In this document: in pieces, positions 1 through 5,733 of the stretch
How the letters are laid out: each line of letters begins with the position of its first letter
Numbering within the stretch: position 1 is the stretch's first letter
Origin: Candidatus Eubacterium faecigallinarum
GTDB taxonomy: Bacteria; Bacillota; Clostridia; Oscillospirales; Acutalibacteraceae
Length of the DNA: 64,000 nucleotides
Direction: 5' to 3'
NCBI GenBank assembly: GCA_019115455.1
Contig: DXDN01000006.1
Location: forward strand, 1-64,000
The notes under the pieces: model-generated
Seen by the model: the letters and a program-made list of their open reading frames with translations, nothing else
The model's database searches: none
Told to the model about the DNA's origin: nothing
Made by a program: the position numbers and the translations under genes

Positions 1-330
1 ATTAATATTATACCGCTGGTAATAGGCATTTCCGTGGGAATTCGAGCCGCATATCTGTTTATAAATTATTCGTCAAAAGGCGTCGGTTACGCACTGATTA
101 TGCTAGTGCCGTACACAGCGCTGTTTTTGACCGTAATTTCATTTGCGGTTAACGAAAGTGCTGCGCTTTCAAAAAAGCTTATTATGCTTACAAAAAATAA
201 GAGCAGTGTATCAGAATTTTCATTAATGCCGCACATAAAAAAATATATAATTCTTGCTGTGGGTGTTGCGCTTACCGCAATTACAGATGCGGGTCTGACA
301 TGCCTTTTGTTCAGCGTTGTCACCATTTAG
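1..330 (+). CDS. C-terminal part of a multi-pass membrane protein (possibly SpoIIM-like)
   Basis: The reading frame is open from the first base of the window to a TAG at 328-330, so the 5' part of the gene lies outside. The visible 109 residues hold about three hydrophobic stretches (residues 1-20, 30-52 and 82-107 of the fragment) joined by a basic, polar linker. There is no catalytic motif. SpoIIM-type sporulation membrane proteins are often next to xerD in Firmicutes, and the convergent neighbour here is a XerC/D-type recombinase, so a SpoIIM-like identity is an inference from context. Its stop overlaps the end of the recombinase gene by 11 bases on opposite strands. The coding call is fairly sure; the function is not. 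Confidence 0.5.
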   Translation: MNIIPLVIGISVGIRAAYLFINYSSKGVGYALIMLVPYTALFLTVISFAVNESAALSKKLIMLTKNKSSVSEFSLMPHIKKYIILAVGVALTAITDAGLTCLLFSVVTI

Positions 331-1294
331 GTTTTTCGTTTGAAAGGGGATTCGACTGAATGGCTTTTCGTGCCGCGTCGTCACTAATATGAGTGTATAT
401 TTCAGTCGTTCCAAGATTTTCGTGTCCCAGTATTTCTTTTAGTAAGAGCAAATCCACATTGCCATGCTGGTACATAAGTGTTGCGGCAGTATGGCGAAGC
501 TTGTGAACAGAAAGATTCCTGTCGCCAAGTCCGGCTTTATCAAGATATGTATATACCAAATGCTGTACCGTCTTAGGGCTTATGCGCTGATTCCTTGAGC
601 TGAGAAACAGCGCTCTGTCTTTAACTTTATCATTAGGACGGACTTTCATATAGCTGACTATTGCATCAACACATGCCTTGTTTAGATAAATAGTTCTTTC
701 CTTATTTCCTTTTCCGGTAATAACAAGTGATCCGTCGTCCTTAATGTCGTTATAATTTATTGATACAAGCTCACTAAGACGCATTCCGCAGTTTAAAAAC
801 AGCGTTATAATGGCATAATCACGCTCTTTATACTTACCGTCTATTACAGATAGTAATTTTTCTGCCTCTTCAAGAGTAAGATATTTCGGGAGCGATTTCT
901 TTGTTTTAGGAGTATCAAGCGCTTTCATGGGATTTTTCTCAATCAGTCCGAGATTTTCGGATAAATAGCTGTAAAAACGTCTTATAGAAATAACCCTGCG
1001 AGCCCTCGTTGACTCATTGTTTTTCCTGATATCTTTGCAGTAAATCAAAAAACGGTACGCATCAGTAAGATTTACACTCTGTATAAACTTTAAATCAATA
1101 GGGGACAAATCAATTTTTTCGTCGGGTGTGTCTTTTTCACATAAACCTTTTTCACGTGCAAGATATCTAAAGAAAGTTCTAAGATCAGAAGCATACTCAA
1201 TTACTGATAGTTGGCTGTGACCTTTGATTGCTTCAATATATATAAGATACTGCTGTACAAGCTGCGGCAGGTATTGAAATTCTTCCTTACGCAA
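320..1294 (-). CDS. Site-specific tyrosine recombinase, XerC/XerD family
   Basis: Tyrosine recombinase with an N-terminal SAM-like core-binding domain (about residues 10-120) and a C-terminal catalytic domain. The full catalytic set is visible, numbered from a GTG at 1303: R175 in NCGMRLSEL, K198, H267 and R270 in HKLRHTA, H294 in ILGHEN and the nucleophile Y303 in EIYTH. Family members resolve chromosome dimers at dif or act as general Xer-type recombinases. I prefer the TTG at 1294 (324 residues) because AAGGAG lies eight bases upstream; the GTG at 1303 overlaps that ribosome binding site. XerC and XerD cannot be told apart from sequence alone. It is the nearest full-length recombinase to the element at 1540-4295 and could act on its ends. 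Confidence 0.92.
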   Translation of the reverse strand: MRKEEFQYLPQLVQQYLIYIEAIKGHSQLSVIEYASDLRTFFRYLAREKGLCEKDTPDEKIDLSPIDLKFIQSVNLTDAYRFLIYCKDIRKNNESTRARRVISIRRFYSYLSENLGLIEKNPMKALDTPKTKKSLPKYLTLEEAEKLLSVIDGKYKERDYAIITLFLNCGMRLSELVSINYNDIKDDGSLVITGKGNKERTIYLNKACVDAIVSYMKVRPNDKVKDRALFLSSRNQRISPKTVQHLVYTYLDKAGLGDRNLSVHKLRHTAATLMYQHGNVDLLLLKEILGHENLGTTEIYTHISDDAARKAIQSNPLSNEKPKW

Positions 1295-1303
1295 AATTAT
1301 CAC

Positions 1304-1539
1304 TCCTTATTTTGATAACATTTTTGCTGTGTTAAATACAAGTCTTTGATAATTATAACAGAATAGATAAACAAGATAGATGTTAAAAGCTGCTTAACTG
1401 TATCCAATTACAACATAAACATAACAAACATAAATAATATATCATATATCATACTGTTTACAATTAATTATTATAATAGCATTTAGAAATATTAAAGAAA
1501 CTTAGTGATTTAATTGCTTTTCTTTTTTTACTCCCCTAT
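1304..1539. other. AT-rich intergenic spacer
   Basis: This stretch lies between the recombinase start and the left end of the mobile element. It is strongly AT-rich, with short ATATATCAT-type near-repeats around 1436-1452. I see no open frame with a ribosome binding site, no clear terminator and no promoter with correct spacing. With the element removed, it would join the sequence upstream of the radA terminator. Confidence 0.6.
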
Positions 1540-1569
1540 ATTAAACAAAACATTTATTTTGTATAATTG
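1540..1569 (+). repeat. Left attachment-like site (attL)
   Basis: Contains the 19-base direct repeat CATTTATTTTGTATAATTG at 1551-1569. The site has an 11-6-11 plan: arm ATTAAACAAAA (1540-1550), centre CATTTA (1551-1556), arm TTTTGTATAAT (1557-1567). The two arms are inverted copies with 10 of 11 positions matching. This is the layout of a tyrosine recombinase core site, and the right arm resembles the XerD half of Firmicute dif sites at about 8 of 11 positions. Confidence 0.72.
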
Positions 1570-1613
1570 CTAAAGCAATTAGTTAGGCTTTGCCCCTCAC
1601 GACTGCAAAGCCT
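1565..1613. repeat. Two small inverted repeats inside the left end
   Basis: AATTGC/GCAATT (1565-1570 and 1575-1580, loop TAAA) is followed by AGGCTTTGC/GCAAAGCCT (1585-1593 and 1605-1613, loop of 11). Both lie just inside the left attachment-like site, where recombinase arm sites or a replication structure could sit. No function is shown by the sequence. Confidence 0.5.
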
Positions 1614-1668
1614 TACAAAATAAATTTTTTGTACAAAGCGTTTTACTACTCCTTTTCCAAAAAAATTA

Positions 1669-1698
1669 TTGACAAACAAGAACCCCACATGATATTAT
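1669..1698 (+). promoter_or_regulatory. Sigma-A-type promoter of the putative small RNA
   Basis: TTGACA at 1669-1674 and TATTAT at 1693-1698 with an 18-base spacer. The start point would be near 1705. No start codon with a ribosome binding site follows before the terminator at 1781-1812, so the product would be a short RNA. Confidence 0.55.
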
Positions 1699-1704
1699 AA
1701 AAGC

Positions 1705-1814
1705 ACAGGCGAAGCGATTAGCTTCAAACAATAGCCCATATGCCCGTGTAGATCTCTTCGAACGTCTACGGCTATTGTATCAAAAAAGCCCTTGATCAGT
1801 CAAGGGCTTTTTTT
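1705..1814 (+). ncRNA. Putative structured small RNA of the mobile element
   Basis: A segment of about 110 nt with its own promoter and an intrinsic terminator. Three structures can be drawn: GAAGC/GCTTC (1711-1715, 1721-1725); a long stem ACAATAGCC/GGCTATTGT (1728-1736, 1770-1778) continued by GTAGA/TCTAC (1748-1752, 1765-1769) with an 11-base bulge on one side; and the terminator hairpin. No open frame of note is inside. It ends at the stop codon of the convergent recombinase frame. I do not recognise it as a known family. It could be a replication-control or regulatory RNA, or the structure could act as DNA. Confidence 0.5.
1779..1812. terminator. Bidirectional intrinsic terminator
   Basis: AAAAAAGCCCTTGA, loop TCAG, then TCAAGGGCTTTTTTT. 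It has a T run in both directions, so it can end the small RNA (+) and the rep/recombinase transcript (-). The GCCCTTGA/TCAAGGGC module recurs in two other hairpins of the element. Confidence 0.85.
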
Positions 1815-2334
1815 ATTTGTACTTTTCCGTCAGCTCATCAGACAGCGCATAAATTATAGTAGTTGTGATATTATCGTGATTCATAGCGGCGCCAATCTCT
1901 TCGAGAGTGCGGCCGCTGTTTTTCAAATAGACCGCATAATTTTTTCTCAGACTGTGAGGGCTCAAATTGATTTTAATATTAAACCGCTTTGCCACTCGTT
2001 TTAAATCAGCAAAAACGGCTTGCCGTGTTCTGTGCTTTCTGTAGTCGTCACGCCCTTCAAATACGTATATGCGCCCAGCTTGTTCGAGTAAGCCGTCAAT
2101 CAGATGAAGCGGTAGCACCCGAGTGCTCCGCTTCCCTGTTTTTGACTCTGTAATTGTTAGGCTGTGCCGTTTTTTCATTCGGCACTTTTTCAGCTCGTCG
2201 GTCTTTAATGATAATATATCATCAATGCGCCACCCTGTTTCAAGTGCCAGCTTGCAAGCTAAAGAGTTCGCAGGCTGTAAAGCCCACAGTAAGGCGCTTA
2301 TTGTATCTGTTTTTACGTAGTCACTCCGAATTTT
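1813..2334 (-). CDS. Tyrosine recombinase catalytic domain, no own start codon (rep-linked frame)
   Basis: The frame is open for 173 sense codons from an in-frame TAA at 2335-2337 to the stop at 1813. It encodes a whole tyrosine recombinase catalytic domain: box I arginine in LETGWRIDD, HSLRK (H..R motif), NHDN in place of the usual GH, and the tyrosine in TTTIIYAL. The N-terminal DNA-binding domain is missing. The first ATG in frame (2178) lies downstream of the box I arginine, and no ATG, GTG or TTG occurs before it, so a protein started there (121 residues) would lack a catalytic residue. The frame begins inside the 3' end of rep, offset +1, beside a run of six A (2331-2336 on the + strand as T). 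Loss of one A would fuse it to Rep. It may be a slippage-made fusion, a remnant, or a sequencing error. Confidence 0.6.
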   Translation of the reverse strand, partial: KIRSDYVKTDTISALLWALQPANSLACKLALETGWRIDDILSLKTDELKKCRMKKRHSLTITESKTGKRSTRVLPLHLIDGLLEQAGRIYVFEGRDDYRKHRTRQAVFADLKRVAKRFNIKINLSPHSLRKNYAVYLKNSGRTLEEIGAAMNHDNITTTIIYALSDELTEKYK

Positions 2335-3238
2335 TTACACCTCTTTCTTTATACCTGTGTTCTCGATAATCCCATACGTAGTCGTACATTTGTTTGATTA
2401 TTTCCGCCCTTTCGTTCTGCTCCTTTATTTCTGCCAGCTCAGTTTTAATTACTCCGTAGCTCTGCTGAAATCTCGTTCCCTTGAGCGTGTATGCCAATGT
2501 GTAAAGCACATAGGCATTTTGAACCGTTGTGCCTTTGGTAAAGTCCAACGGCTTCAAGCAGTATTTGCTGACCTCAGCAAATCCGATATTATCGTCCCCT
2601 TTAATTGTGGATATAGATATCTGCAAAGGCTCTTTGCTTTTATATGCCTTGCTCCAAAGTTCTCGCAGTCGGTCATATTTTATGTACTGCCTGTTGTTTG
2701 TAAAATAGCTTTTTTTAACAGCAACAAGACAATGAAAATGAGGGTGAAAGCTGAAGCTGTCATAATTATACGATAGTTCCAAGCAACGCAATATGCCTTT
2801 AAATGCTCTTTTGATTTCCTTGTTTTTGATGAACAAGCCGAACGCCTTGTTCATATTCTTTATTGTTTTAACAAGTTCCGCACCGCCTTTACAGTTCGGC
2901 ACAGTCAAAACCAAATGCAAAAAGCGGTAACCCTGAGCACTCAGCCGCTCGGAAAGCTTCAAGCAATTTGAAAATTGCTTTTCGCTTTTCCTCCACTGGC
3001 ACATCATACAAAAACGCTTGCGGCAAAAGTGCGCTTCATGCACTCTTATTTGTTCATCCTCTGTAATTCCAAAAGTCACAAATTCGCCGCACTCAGCGCA
3101 AGCCGCTCTGTCCTTGTCAGTAAACATATCATTGTAATTCATAAGGTCATAAACCTTGTATGAAAGTTCTTGGAATTTCTCAAACTTTTCAATATACTTT
3201 TTCTTAAGTAATAATTCCGTAAAATCCACGTTGTTCAC
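2321..3238 (-). CDS. rep: Rolling-circle replication initiator, Rep_1 family (pC194/pUB110 type)
   Basis: A 305-residue initiator that nicks the plus-strand origin and starts rolling-circle replication. Visible motifs: a Cys-rich metal-binding part (C47, C50, then C72, C77 and C80 in FCRKRFCMMCQWRKS), the FLHLVLTVPN strand (106-115), the HUH metal-binding motif HPHFH at 165-169, and the active-site tyrosine Y226 in AEVSKYCLKP. These are the standard Rep_1 motifs of pC194/pUB110-like plasmids. The start is a GTG at 3238 without a good ribosome binding site. A nick-site-like sequence lies 40-60 bases upstream on the same strand. The 3' end overlaps the recombinase-domain frame by 14 bases. Length and motifs look intact, so it may still be active. 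Confidence 0.92.
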   Translation of the reverse strand: MNNVDFTELLLKKKYIEKFEKFQELSYKVYDLMNYNDMFTDKDRAACAECGEFVTFGITEDEQIRVHEAHFCRKRFCMMCQWRKSEKQFSNCLKLSERLSAQGYRFLHLVLTVPNCKGGAELVKTIKNMNKAFGLFIKNKEIKRAFKGILRCLELSYNYDSFSFHPHFHCLVAVKKSYFTNNRQYIKYDRLRELWSKAYKSKEPLQISISTIKGDDNIGFAEVSKYCLKPLDFTKGTTVQNAYVLYTLAYTLKGTRFQQSYGVIKTELAEIKEQNERAEIIKQMYDYVWDYREHRYKERGVKNSE

Positions 3239-3277
3239 GTGTAAAACGCCAGTTTTTTAATAGCTTGAGATGTTTCT

Positions 3278-3296
3278 ATATTATCAAGATAAGAAT
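3278..3296 (-). promoter_or_regulatory. Double-strand-origin nick-site-like sequence
   Basis: On the minus strand this reads ATTCTTATCTTGATAATAT. From memory, the origin nick region of pC194 and pUB110 contains CTTATCTTGATA, cleaved after TCTTG. The bases that follow here, ATATAGAAA, also resemble pUB110. It lies upstream of rep on the rep strand, as in those plasmids. Seen: the match. Inferred: that Rep nicks here. Confidence 0.7.
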
Positions 3297-3519
3297 CAAA
3301 AGGCAATGCCTTTTGAAGCTCGCCGCCCCCCGCCCTTGTCCGCTTGGGGCTGGCTCGCTTTCTCGCTCGGCACTCGGGCACTTAAACGCGCCCGTGTTGC
3401 CTCGCTCAGAGCTTGCCGCATTCGTCGACGGAGCTCCGAAGCGGCTTCGCTCAATTTAAAACGCAGCATTACTAAAAAACAAACGCGGTCGGCAAAACAT
3501 TTGTTAACAAGGTATCTCA

Positions 3520-3570
3520 CAAAAAGGGCAATAGCCACTTTGTTCTTGGCATACGGCCTTGCCCTTTTTG
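3520..3570. repeat. 12-base perfect inverted repeat
   Basis: CAAAAAGGGCAA (3520-3531) and TTGCCCTTTTTG (3559-3570), with an inner GCCA/TGGC pair. The left side continues as CAATAGCC, the same string as in the small RNA stem at 1729-1736. It is terminator-like but its T run is short, so a single-strand-origin hairpin is an equal possibility. Confidence 0.6.
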
Positions 3571-3708
3571 CTTCGGTCAATTGTGGTGTGCTCGGCTCTC
3601 TGCCGCTTCCCAACGCTTCGCTTGGTCGCTTACGTTCGCCTGCGCGCACCCAGCCGCCTCCGCAGAAAACAGAAAGCCGCGAAGCACAGCCCTCGCCAAA
3701 AGTAAAGC

Positions 3709-3747
3709 AAGGGCTCCGCAAGCAGGCTCTTCGAGCCTGCCCTTGAC
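3709..3747. repeat. AAGGGC...GCCCTTGAC hairpin, copy 1
   Basis: The inner stem is CAGGCTC/GAGCCTG with loop TTC (3723-3739) and the outer arms are CAAGGGC/GCCCTTG (3708-3714, 3739-3745). It shares GCAAGCAGGC and GCCTGCCCTTGAC with copy 2 at 4195-4233. Confidence 0.65.
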
Positions 3748-3868
3748 TTTTGGCTTCGGTCTGTGCACTGCTTCTGTGCCGCCCTTTGCCACTGTTTAGT
3801 TAGTCGGCGGCACAAATGGCGTTACTGCTCCCCGAGCGTTCGAGAACGGGAAAGACGCCGCCGACATA

Positions 3869-3907
3869 GCCGGGGATAAATCCCCGGCATAACGGCACAG
3901 TGTGCCG
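3869..3907. repeat. Two adjacent perfect hairpins
   Basis: GCCGGGGA/TCCCCGGC with loop TAAA (3869-3888), then CGGCACA/TGTGCCG around a single G (3893-3907). They are very stable and lie in non-coding DNA of the element. Confidence 0.65.
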
Positions 3908-4104
3908 CATGGATTGTCGGCGCTTCGGTCGCTTCGCTCCGCGCTTTCCCTTTTCCGACCGCATGGCTTGCGCCATTTGCTTGGCGGCTTTGCCGCTGAG
4001 CGCCTTGCGGCGCTCGTTTTAGCCGCAACGTAAAGTATTAAGTTGACAATATAGAAAAAGTCAAATATTTCCGCTCTGAGCGCTCCTGCGCTCCACTCTC
4101 CCCC

Positions 4105-4129
4105 CCCCCCTCGCTCGAAGCGAGGGGGG
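4105..4129. repeat. 11-bp C-rich hairpin with three-base loop
   Basis: CCCCCCTCGCT, loop CGA, AGCGAGGGGGG: an 11-bp perfect stem. It overlaps the run of 11 C at 4100-4110. It is a strong candidate for a replication-related secondary structure. Confidence 0.65.
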
Positions 4130-4194
4130 CACAGGCTCAGCGATTAAGCGGCGGCGGTGCCGCTCCTTTTAATGCTGAACATCAAGCGGACATT

Positions 4195-4233
4195 GTCAAG
4201 GGCTGAGCAAGCAGGCCCAGGCCTGCCCTTGAC
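4195..4233. repeat. GTCAAGGGC...GCCCTTGAC hairpin, copy 2
   Basis: Outer arms GTCAAGGGC (4195-4203) and GCCCTTGAC (4225-4233), inner GCAGGC/GCCTGC (4211-4216, 4221-4226). It is the second copy of the module seen at 3709-3747, and its arms match the terminator at 1785-1807. Confidence 0.65.
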
Positions 4234-4265
4234 AATTAAATAAAGCGATTGCAACCGCAACCGCT

Positions 4266-4297
4266 TTAAACAAAAAATCATTTATTTTGTATAATTG
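4266..4297 (+). repeat. Right attachment-like site (attR)
   Basis: Perfect copy of the 19-base repeat (4279-4297). It is preceded by TTAAACAAAA (4266-4275), which also precedes the left copy but is separated here by three extra bases (AAT). Crossover bases CATTTA and the right arm are identical to attL. The left arm differs, as expected for a product of recombination between two non-identical partner sites. Confidence 0.72.
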
Positions 4298-4371: not shown

Positions 4372-5733
4372 TTATTCTTCAGTCAAAGCGCTGAAAGCAT
4401 CGCGTATATTTCTCACCGGAACTATATCCAAGCTGGTTTTCAGTTCCTTGGGCAGCGGTTTGTAATTATGAAATGGAATAATACATTTTTCAAAACCGAG
4501 CCTATATGCTTCGTTTATTCGCTGTTCGCAGTTATTTACTGCTCTTATCTCTCCGCCGAGTCCTACTTCACCAAATGCAAGAACTTTGTCCCCCACCGGT
4601 TTATCTTTCAGTGACGACACAAGCGCCATTGCCACCGTAAGATCTGCCGCCGGTTCGTCAAGCTTCAGTCCGCCGATGACATTAACGTAAGCATCCATAT
4701 TACTGAAAATAAATCCGGCTCTTTTTTCAAGCACAGCAAGAAGCATGCTCATTCTGTTATAGTCAAAGCCTGTGCTCATACGTCTTGGCGTTCCGAAGCC
4801 TGTGGCGCATACAAGTCCCTGAACCTCAGCAAGAAGCGGTCTTGTACCCTCCATAACGCAGGCCACGCAGGTTCCTGACGTATTTGCAGGTCTGCCGGAA
4901 ATCATCATTAAAGACGGATTCAGCACCTCTTTAAGCCCGTCGGATGTCATTTCAAATACGCCTATCTCGTTAGTTGAGCCAAATCTGTTTTTTACTCCGC
5001 GTAATATTCTGTATGAGTAATTTTTCTCACCCTCAAAGTACAGCACCGTATCAACTATATGCTCAAGAACCTTAGGTCCCGCTATTGCGCCGTCCTTGTT
5101 AACATGACCGACTATGATTATTGGAATTCCGAGACCCTTTGCCGTATGCATATAAATATTTGTACATTCTCTGACCTGTGTTACTGAGCCTGCAGATGAC
5201 GCCACCTCGTCGTAGACCATTGTTTGAATTGAATCAACAATTACAAGATCAGGCTTTTCTGTTTTTATCGTTTCGATAATTATTGAAACATTTGTTTGGG
5301 TGAGGATATAAAGATTATCAGTTGTTACACCGAGCCTGTTGGCACGCATTTTTATCTGATTTGCCGATTCCTCGCCGCTGACATACAATATTTTACGTTT
5401 TTCACCAAGATGCTGACAGATCTGAAGAAGAATTGTTGATTTACCGATACCCGGGTCGCCGCTCAGAAGCACAAGACTGCCAATAACGATACCGCCGCCC
5501 AGAACTCGGTCAAATTCATTGTTTCCTGTAGAAATTCTTCTTTCTACGTCCTCAGTGATATCGTCAAGAGCCATAACGTGACCCGGCGACGTAATAACCT
5601 TTGCTGAATTTGCCGTTTCTGAAATTTTTTCGTCCATAGTGTTCCACTGATTACAGCCCGGGCATTTGCCGTACCATTTAGGTGACTCATAGCCGCATTC
5701 GCTGCAAACATACACTGATTTTATTTTTGCCAT
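4372..5733 (-). CDS. radA: DNA repair protein RadA (Sms)
   Basis: RecA-like ATPase that drives branch migration of recombination intermediates. It has 453 residues, the usual length. The N-terminal zinc finger is visible (C10, C13, C24, C27), followed by the Walker A motif GDPGIGKST (92-100), the RadA-specific KNRFGSTNE motif (about 247-255) and a C-terminal Lon-protease-like domain that is probably structural. The start ATG at 5733 directly abuts the stop of the upstream amidase gene, so the two are one operon. It is the first host gene right of the integrated element, and its terminator separates the two. Confidence 0.97.
   Translation of the reverse strand: MAKIKSVYVCSECGYESPKWYGKCPGCNQWNTMDEKISETANSAKVITSPGHVMALDDITEDVERRISTGNNEFDRVLGGGIVIGSLVLLSGDPGIGKSTILLQICQHLGEKRKILYVSGEESANQIKMRANRLGVTTDNLYILTQTNVSIIIETIKTEKPDLVIVDSIQTMVYDEVASSAGSVTQVRECTNIYMHTAKGLGIPIIIVGHVNKDGAIAGPKVLEHIVDTVLYFEGEKNYSYRILRGVKNRFGSTNEIGVFEMTSDGLKEVLNPSLMMISGRPANTSGTCVACVMEGTRPLLAEVQGLVCATGFGTPRRMSTGFDYNRMSMLLAVLEKRAGFIFSNMDAYVNVIGGLKLDEPAADLTVAMALVSSLKDKPVGDKVLAFGEVGLGGEIRAVNNCEQRINEAYRLGFEKCIIPFHNYKPLPKELKTSLDIVPVRNIRDAFSALTEE

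Follow-up and report, generated by a model that had tools for sequence, protein, structure and literature searches.

The window examined here, 64,000 nucleotides at the start of contig DXDN01000006.1 of Candidatus Eubacterium faecigallinarum (assembly GCA_019115455.1), carries near its left end a 2,728-bp unit that we regard as probably a rolling-circle plasmid integrated at the dif (chromosome-dimer-resolution) site of its host by a fold-back route like that of the cholera-toxin phage CTXphi, and as a member of a widespread gut family of Clostridia/Oscillospiraceae type. This little-known family of gut plasmids may insert into chromosomes as single-stranded DNA. The unit lies between the host genes xer and radA (Table 1) and is flanked by perfect 19-nucleotide (nt) direct repeats at 1551-1569 and 4279-4297. 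If as many as 3 mismatches are allowed, the repeat is found at 2 places in the window, against 0.09 expected, and two copies arose in 0 of 100 shuffles; in the whole 1.71-Mb genome its 17-nt core is found without mismatch only at the two element ends, and with 2 mismatches at five more places. An ordinary promoter-like repeat, a possibility raised by the sequence-only reading of this stretch, is rejected on that uniqueness. The same reading had described a small integrated rolling-circle replicon without mobilisation or cargo genes between exact repeats, and the description holds: relatives have empty sites, circular plasmid relatives of 2.2-3.8 kb exist, and the unit encodes a Rep_1 initiator with HUH and Tyr motifs (144.5 bits against a gathering score of 33.2) and a tyrosine recombinase consisting of a catalytic domain only (PF00589, E=3e-17, 63 bits), with no further gene or cargo evident. 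The GC-rich structured block was also recovered.

Where an otherwise ordinary housekeeping region had been assumed, the insertion point turned out to be a dif-like site beside xer, and this changed our view of the nature of the element and of its probable integration route. Of the 29 loci retrieved around radA from relatives, 18 contain both that gene and xer, and the element is in none of these 18 radA-xer intervals (122-753 nt), so that the suggested search for empty sites succeeded and the segment is no constant feature of the locus in the relatives examined. A palindrome, AATTATACAAAA-N6-TTTTGTATAATT, with varying arms (at least 9 of 12 pairs), is held by 16 of the 18 empty intervals, and the xer-side end of the element is such a 6-nt-spacer palindrome. 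The box AGGGGAGT follows the palindrome directly and exactly in 11 of the 16 empty sites (window 1530-1537, L009-L034). In L052 and L088 a AGGGGAGT-like box stands on the side away from xer, and the box may therefore mark the polarity of dif and not the ribosome site of xer.

All six finished or near-finished genomes have the site upstream of xer, at a distance of 61-157 nt, with no second site having the same arms in the 18 kb read from them. A dif site is expected to be unique and near the skew switch or terminus; the terminus position comes from G303 only (a single 3,435,529-bp contig, beginning with a gene that by eye looks like dnaA), where the element lies at 1.6907-1.6950 Mb, at 49% of the length, with positive GC skew in 11 of 11 samples up to the element and negative skew in 7 of 9 after it, and the window's own genome contributes the uniqueness of the 17-nt core only. 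The target is dif-like on three counts: sequence, location beside xer and, in one complete genome, position at the terminus. A single Xer-like recombinase was found in the genome of the window host; PF00589 otherwise matches the element's mini-recombinase and two integrases, one of 434 amino acids (aa) and one that is partial and lies at a contig end. This Xer scores ~200 bits against the XerC, XerA and XerD models, all under their cut-offs, and 140 bits against the XerS model (cut-off 267); at least one other host, G127, has an additional XerD-like protein.

The structure of the ends was compared across relatives. A search profile built from eight mini-recombinases (window and seven plasmids) gave 63 loci in named genomes, and 23 elements of 2.0-4.6 kb could be bounded at both ends (the window element, those of two further genomes and 20 of the 63 loci), most of them found via the 6-nt-spacer palindrome first, and L049, L056, L065, L077, L088, L094 and L102 via direct repeats. 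Among the 43 loci outside this set, 15 have a 6-nt-spacer palindrome (at least 11 of 12 pairs) but no usable second end (L053, L054, L061, L066, L069, L075, L079, L081, L087, L091, L092, L095, L106, L107 and L111); L087 (= G127), in which a second end is present and the recombinase gene is inverted relative to Rep, was kept out of the 23. L064 was excluded (repeated arms, no xer in the locus), and the rest are short or circular contigs, contig ends, loci with no recognised site (e.g., L051, L076, L085, L093, L100) and L109.

On the dif side, all 22 elements that could be parsed have a 6-nt spacer. The distal end shares with it the arm and between 1 and 6 initial spacer bases, after which the spacer differs; its length in the 21 parsed elements (L088 and L098 being unparsed) is 6 nt (2), 7 (3), 8 (4), 9 (7), 10 (4) or 11 (1). 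At 7-11 nt, 19 of these 21 distal spacers are longer than the 6 nt of dif. Both ends have the form expected from one strand exchange, on the Rep-coding strand, at the boundary between arm 1 and spacer. The arms vary by host (AATTATACAAAA, AACGCAACAAAA, AACTCAACAAAA, AATTGAACAAAA, ACTTGCACAAAA, AACTACACAAAA, ATTTCGCTAAA, GTTTCACTAAA, GTGCGTTAAA, AATTCGGCATAA). Arm 1 is common to both ends by construction and arm 2 of attP1, the distal site, is the plasmid's alone; the outer 7 nt of arm 2 have a mean of 5.1 matches to the dif of their own host versus 3.1 to other types (21 elements, permutation p=0.0001), the own-dif match being above the mean of other types in 18 of 21 and above every other type in 11 of 21. 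Moreover, L068 holds two 3,417-bp tandem copies with 0 mismatches, and its order of sites (long, long, 6-nt dif, xer) is the one predicted if insertion recurred at a regenerated dif. The elements do not all face the same way with respect to xer, L052, L071, L087, L088, G303 and L266 being reversed.

In the rebuilt circle, 21 of the 23 elements contain an inverted imperfect copy of attP1, here attP2 (p=0.003, the smallest value attainable in 300 shuffles), placed 28-125 nt upstream of attP1 in 15 elements and 5-33 nt downstream in 6. The test was made upstream only at first, missing the six downstream copies, and the eight weakest or doubtful elements were then retested downstream, which amounts to two tries. 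The inverted match outscores the direct one in 15 of 15 upstream cases, narrowly in L068 (22.4 versus 21.7), and the palindromic arms alone are thus insufficient to explain the copy. Alignments read by eye show a copy without part of the attP1 spacer in 18 of 21 (exceptions L056, L071 and L094), so that pairing would leave a bulge and restore the spacer to ~6 nt. Complementarity between attP1 and attP2 is not confined to the palindromic arms but includes the flanks and spacer of attP1, and in G303, L094 and L102, where arm 2 has diverged from dif, the attP2 copy has changed along with it. As a single strand, the attP of the window is predicted to fold at -32.5 kcal/mol (z -7.7), and the folds of the 23 elements reach z -3.7 to -10.9, with both halves paired, as judged by eye, in 21 of 23 (one half in L098, none in L088). 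When each att region was ranked against 60 windows from within its own element, 18 of 23 came out ahead of every one, and L065 and L084 rank 0.03 and 0.05; fixed 130-nt att windows have a mean z of -6.5 versus -1.9 in 138 internal windows. The free attP of plasmid pRGI00891 shows the same folding (z -4.8). With an inverted attP2 near attP1, single-stranded DNA of the element can by prediction fold into a dif mimic, and its attP has the CTXphi-type layout: an inverted attP1/attP2 pair, a predicted single-strand fold and a longer attP1 spacer.

Published systems are cited here from the available excerpts of the papers. CTXphi carries attP1 (12-nt spacer) and attP2 (6-7 nt) in opposite orientation ~90 bp apart, which form a forked hairpin on the plus strand at which XerC exchanges a single strand pair, the base pairing of the exchanged strands setting the integration rules (PMC3089051); once integrated, it leaves one functional dif, with attP2 and attP1 remaining as dif-like sites (PMC3089051, PMC5357621). 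The elements described here resemble it in their long-spacer attP1, inverted short-spacer attP2, insertion at dif and regeneration of one dif (for the CTXphi side, PMC3089051, PMC5357621), whereas they belong to another phylum and appear to be plasmids with a Rep (Rep_1, Rep_OBD or G2P-type) and a tyrosine recombinase of their own, no virion genes being seen.

We propose a model in which rolling-circle replication would release single-stranded circles, and the attP1 and attP2 pair would form a bulged hairpin mimicking dif. On the Rep-coding strand, where arm 1 meets the spacer, the host Xer would exchange one strand pair; replication would convert the junction into the integrated form, and repeated rounds at the regenerated dif would yield tandem arrays. 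We infer integration from single-stranded DNA, which the junctions fit. The mini-recombinase probably belongs to this complex too, whether as a partner, an activator or the catalyst; the narrower proposal, that a mixed complex of the catalytic-domain-only plasmid recombinase and the full-length host Xer carries out folded single-stranded integration at dif, is put forward tentatively and with somewhat less than even confidence.

Several observations weigh against this account. CTXphi has no recombinase of its own whereas the element keeps one, and the host Xer may not be the catalyst; moreover, for the window element both the circle and the strand exchange are steps that we infer. The 6-nt figure on the dif side is partly the product of selection, since most elements were bounded by a 6-nt palindrome, and L056 and L094 have a distal spacer of 6 nt, with which a full double-strand exchange would be possible. 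Arm 2 of L049, L094 and L102 is no closer to the dif of its own host than to others, and the xer-side site of L049 is poorly dif-like. No acceptable fold-back copy was found in L088, where the match abuts attP1, or in L098 (p=0.02 upstream). L077, L088 and L098 rank 0.12-0.16 among windows of their own element and are not outstanding, no more than 13 of the 23 lie above the 99th percentile of the pooled controls, and other strong hairpins occur within the elements (internal-window minimum z -11.2).

It is also conceivable, if somewhat unlikely, that attP1 serves Xer as an ordinary double-stranded dif mimic in the style of VGJphi/TLCphi or LME-1, attP2 being accessory or a decoy. The arms of attP1 are indeed dif-like in double-stranded form in many elements, and the Legionella element LME-1 provides a precedent: it carries a dif mimic used by one host recombinase, XerL, and the dif concerned is a single-recombinase site whose arms are symmetric (PMC9765430). 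The att of LME-1 differs in being a 22-nt identical part of dif, with no fold-back copy described in the excerpt (PMC9765430). Against such a double-stranded mimic stand the 19 of 21 distal spacers that differ from dif in length, an attP1-attP2 complementarity extending past the palindromic arms and an attP2 that follows the drift of arm 2 in the three diverged elements.

The recombinase of the window element is ~171 aa long and reads without a stop. It has no ATG, GTG or TTG in front, and an ATT codon stands at the position of the ATG of pRGI00891; its frame opens behind the end of rep, and GAGGTG, a possible ribosome site, precedes the ATT. Each of the remaining 22 bounded elements has an ATG, GTG or TTG no more than 13 codons from where the recombinase match begins. 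An ATT start at 2329-2331, overlapping the end of rep, may make expression of the gene weak or coupled to Rep. A frameshift fusion of Rep and recombinase, raised by the overlap, is rejected, the genes being separate in pRGI00891. In the plasmid collection 41 records match the mini-recombinase, the best seven being small circular plasmids of uncultured bacteria with pRGI/pRGF names from a rat-caecum study (38-57% identity, 169-196 aa). The sequence-only reading, which remarked that known small integrative elements normally carry a full integrase, needs revision on this point: relatives are of about the same length, a truncated integrase is rejected, and the catalytic-domain-only form is, judging from these relatives, the usual form of its family, neither remnant nor incomplete integrase. 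Residues R34, K63, K66, H125, R128, H151 and Y160 (window numbering) are invariant in the eight aligned proteins (window and seven plasmids). Such residues form the active site of tyrosine recombinases, and their conservation suggests that the mini-recombinase is probably catalytic. Simple types in the classification of tyrosine recombinases usually have core-binding and catalytic domains (PMC8138268), and the mini-recombinase is not the full-length, core-binding integrase of a conventional integrase-borne element. Small recombinases (~181 aa, 30% identity; L043 3220-3765) are also found on 12.5-kb C. difficile plasmids.

The mini-recombinase might itself be a true integrase, binding the arms of dif and attP and catalysing the exchange with host Xer unneeded. 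Its invariant catalytic residues would suit such a role, as would its presence in every element found, though the searches were made with it. We nevertheless consider this unlikely, given that it lacks the N-terminal domain present in the window Xer and that the arms do not follow it once Xer is accounted for. The distance between arm 1 sequences correlates with Xer distance when the mini-recombinase is removed (r=0.59, p=0.0001) and not with the mini-recombinase when Xer is removed (r=-0.11, p=0.85; 32 loci), and the corresponding partial values for arm 2 are r=0.62, p=0.0001 and r=-0.09, p=0.74 (19 loci). That the attachment arms follow the host Xer, not the element recombinase, is what these correlations support and do not prove, because the loci are related by descent.

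Among the plasmids, the best match is pRGI00891 (2,606 bp), with a Rep 52% and a mini-recombinase 56% identical, the same gene order and a dif-like attP1 with a 9-nt spacer accompanied by an inverted copy. Ahead of Rep both carry the identical nick-site-like stretch TATCTTGATAATATAGAAACATCTCAA, which on this conservation we presume to be the nick site of the window Rep. The nick-like stretch noted in the sequence-only reading, there labelled pC194/pUB110-like, thus stands. The rat-caecum plasmids (HG796394 and six more) are recorded as free circles, unlike the integrated element of the window; the excerpt of that study reports 83 phage-integrase domains in its set of circles and analyses neither these domains nor dif nor integration (PMC3913684).

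The 63 loci bear labels mostly of Clostridia, Oscillospiraceae or genera of that group, including two Flavonifractor strains and records of Anaeromassilibacillus senegalensis, whose NZ_LN868537.1 contains one of the bounded elements, and four are labelled otherwise (Bacteroidales, Gastranaerophilales, Alistipes, Paludibacteraceae). The source genomes are mostly metagenome assemblies, and elements without a mini-recombinase would escape searches seeded with one; an earlier scan of genome contigs using Rep alone gave no match. From viral contigs, where the best 80 of 328 matches were considered, a single close locus (L112) emerged, the remainder being distant integrases. An exact terminal repeat of 77-141 nt, as for circular molecules in such assemblies, was present in 7 of 12 short contigs tested, and the best seven public circular plasmids encoding relatives span 2.2-3.8 kb. 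In a sample of 398 genomes of the host family, ten had a strong mini-recombinase match (at least 84 bits; next genome 68). Rep_1 occurs in 5 of the 398, four of those in the mini-recombinase element. The Rep of integrated elements belongs to Rep_1 in the window and Rep_OBD in L077, is without match in L065, and is REP_ORF2-G2P in 8 of 10 further Reps tested (L068, L070, L071, L072, L084, L097, L098, L104); PF23343, found in 54 of the 398 genomes, is too broad to separate element Reps from others.

The att region could alternatively serve the resolution of plasmid multimers, cer-like, by Xer and/or the mini-recombinase, with chromosomal integration a by-product. Free circles do retain sites (L005, L006, L050 and L103 of ten scanned for CAAAA-type sites); we find this reading rather improbable in view of how often xer adjoins the element, within 4 kb of the mini-recombinase in 10 of 10 strong-match genomes of the sample and, in the fetched stretch, as a xer of this type in 34 of the 63 named loci (3 more have a XerD-like gene only and 3 radA only; in the other 23, some being short or circular contigs, no xer, XerD-like gene or radA was seen). 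A vertically inherited, domesticated locus would account for the same xer neighbourhood in many species and is rejected as extremely improbable on the empty sites in relatives, the two orientations to xer, the three Rep families at the same place, the circular contigs and the tandem copies.

Elements exploiting Xer are known in Vibrio, Neisseria and Enterobacter, and single-recombinase systems have xer beside dif (PMC5357621). The window resembles XerS/difSL and XerH/difH in having a xer gene that adjoins its own dif (PMC5357621) and differs from them in its 6-nt spacer and near-perfect palindrome, with an XerS score under the cut-off. Within the excerpts, CTXphi is the documented case of single-stranded fold-back integration at dif, and the same is suggested for two more filamentous phages of Gram-negative bacteria. 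The accessible text of a survey of predicted dif sites has no mention of Ruminococcus or Faecalibacterium (PMC3025954), and no dif-integrated plasmid of gut Clostridia is described among the open-literature matches listed (titles and abstract beginnings), a set that leaves subscription papers and preprints mostly outside.

A CTXphi-type architecture, perhaps independently arisen, would thus be shared by plasmids found across gut Bacillota whose Reps fall into three or more families and, if true, could represent a general route for rolling-circle replicons into chromosomes. Moreover, we propose dif sites and a dif-linked Xer for a large set of gut bacteria, most of them uncultured. A testable question is the task of a tyrosine recombinase without core-binding domain beside a complete Xer; a mixed complex of the two, if it exists, would be a kind of site-specific recombination not met in the literature examined, as far as its excerpts extend.

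Table 1. Features of the integrated element and its flanks in the window
Feature	Position	Strand	Basis
Host xer (327 aa)	320..1303	-	PF00589 and SAM-like domains
AGGGGAGT box adjoining dif	1530..1537	-	Exact box beside the palindrome in 11/16 empty sites of relatives
xer-proximal end, dif-like, 12-nt arms, 6-nt spacer TAAATG (putative regenerated dif)	1539..1568	-	Matches the empty-site palindrome of relatives
attP2, inverted imperfect copy of attP1, 6-nt spacer	1613..1643	-	Inverted repeats I1 and I2; alignment p=0.003; predicted to fold with attP1
Mini tyrosine recombinase, catalytic domain only, presumed ATT start, 11-nt overlap with rep end	1813..2331	-	PF00589
Rolling-circle initiator Rep_1	2321..3238	-	PF01446 E=5e-42; HPHFH and Tyr motifs by eye in translation
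Presumed double-strand origin / nick region TTCTTATCTTGATAATATAGAAAC	3272..3295	-	Core identical in pRGI00891
GC-rich non-coding block with inverted repeats	3296..4260	.	Read from sequence
radA-proximal end, attP1 hybrid: arm 1, 9-nt spacer TAAATGATT, plasmid arm 2	4261..4297	-	
Host radA, flanking gene	4372..5733	-	Name from domains and conserved place

Some loci show further rearrangements. In L098 (3534-4138) extra copies of arm 1 (at 3534 and 4138, besides 3577) have different continuations and are possibly remnants of earlier insertions at the same dif. L048 (8274-12325) contains a partial second copy with a 300-nt perfect repeat, and its recombinase gene is inverted relative to Rep, the att sites following Rep; L059 (2880-3452) likewise has a partial second copy, with an extra recombinase fragment. 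L109 (4331-9556), in which no dif or xer was recognised, holds a tandem pair of elements 2,544 bp apart (recombinase identity ~37%). Finally, in an Alistipes metagenome-assembled genome (L090, 5050 and 7458) a mini-recombinase of 39% identity lies between repeated half-palindromes, and the family may reach Bacteroidota.

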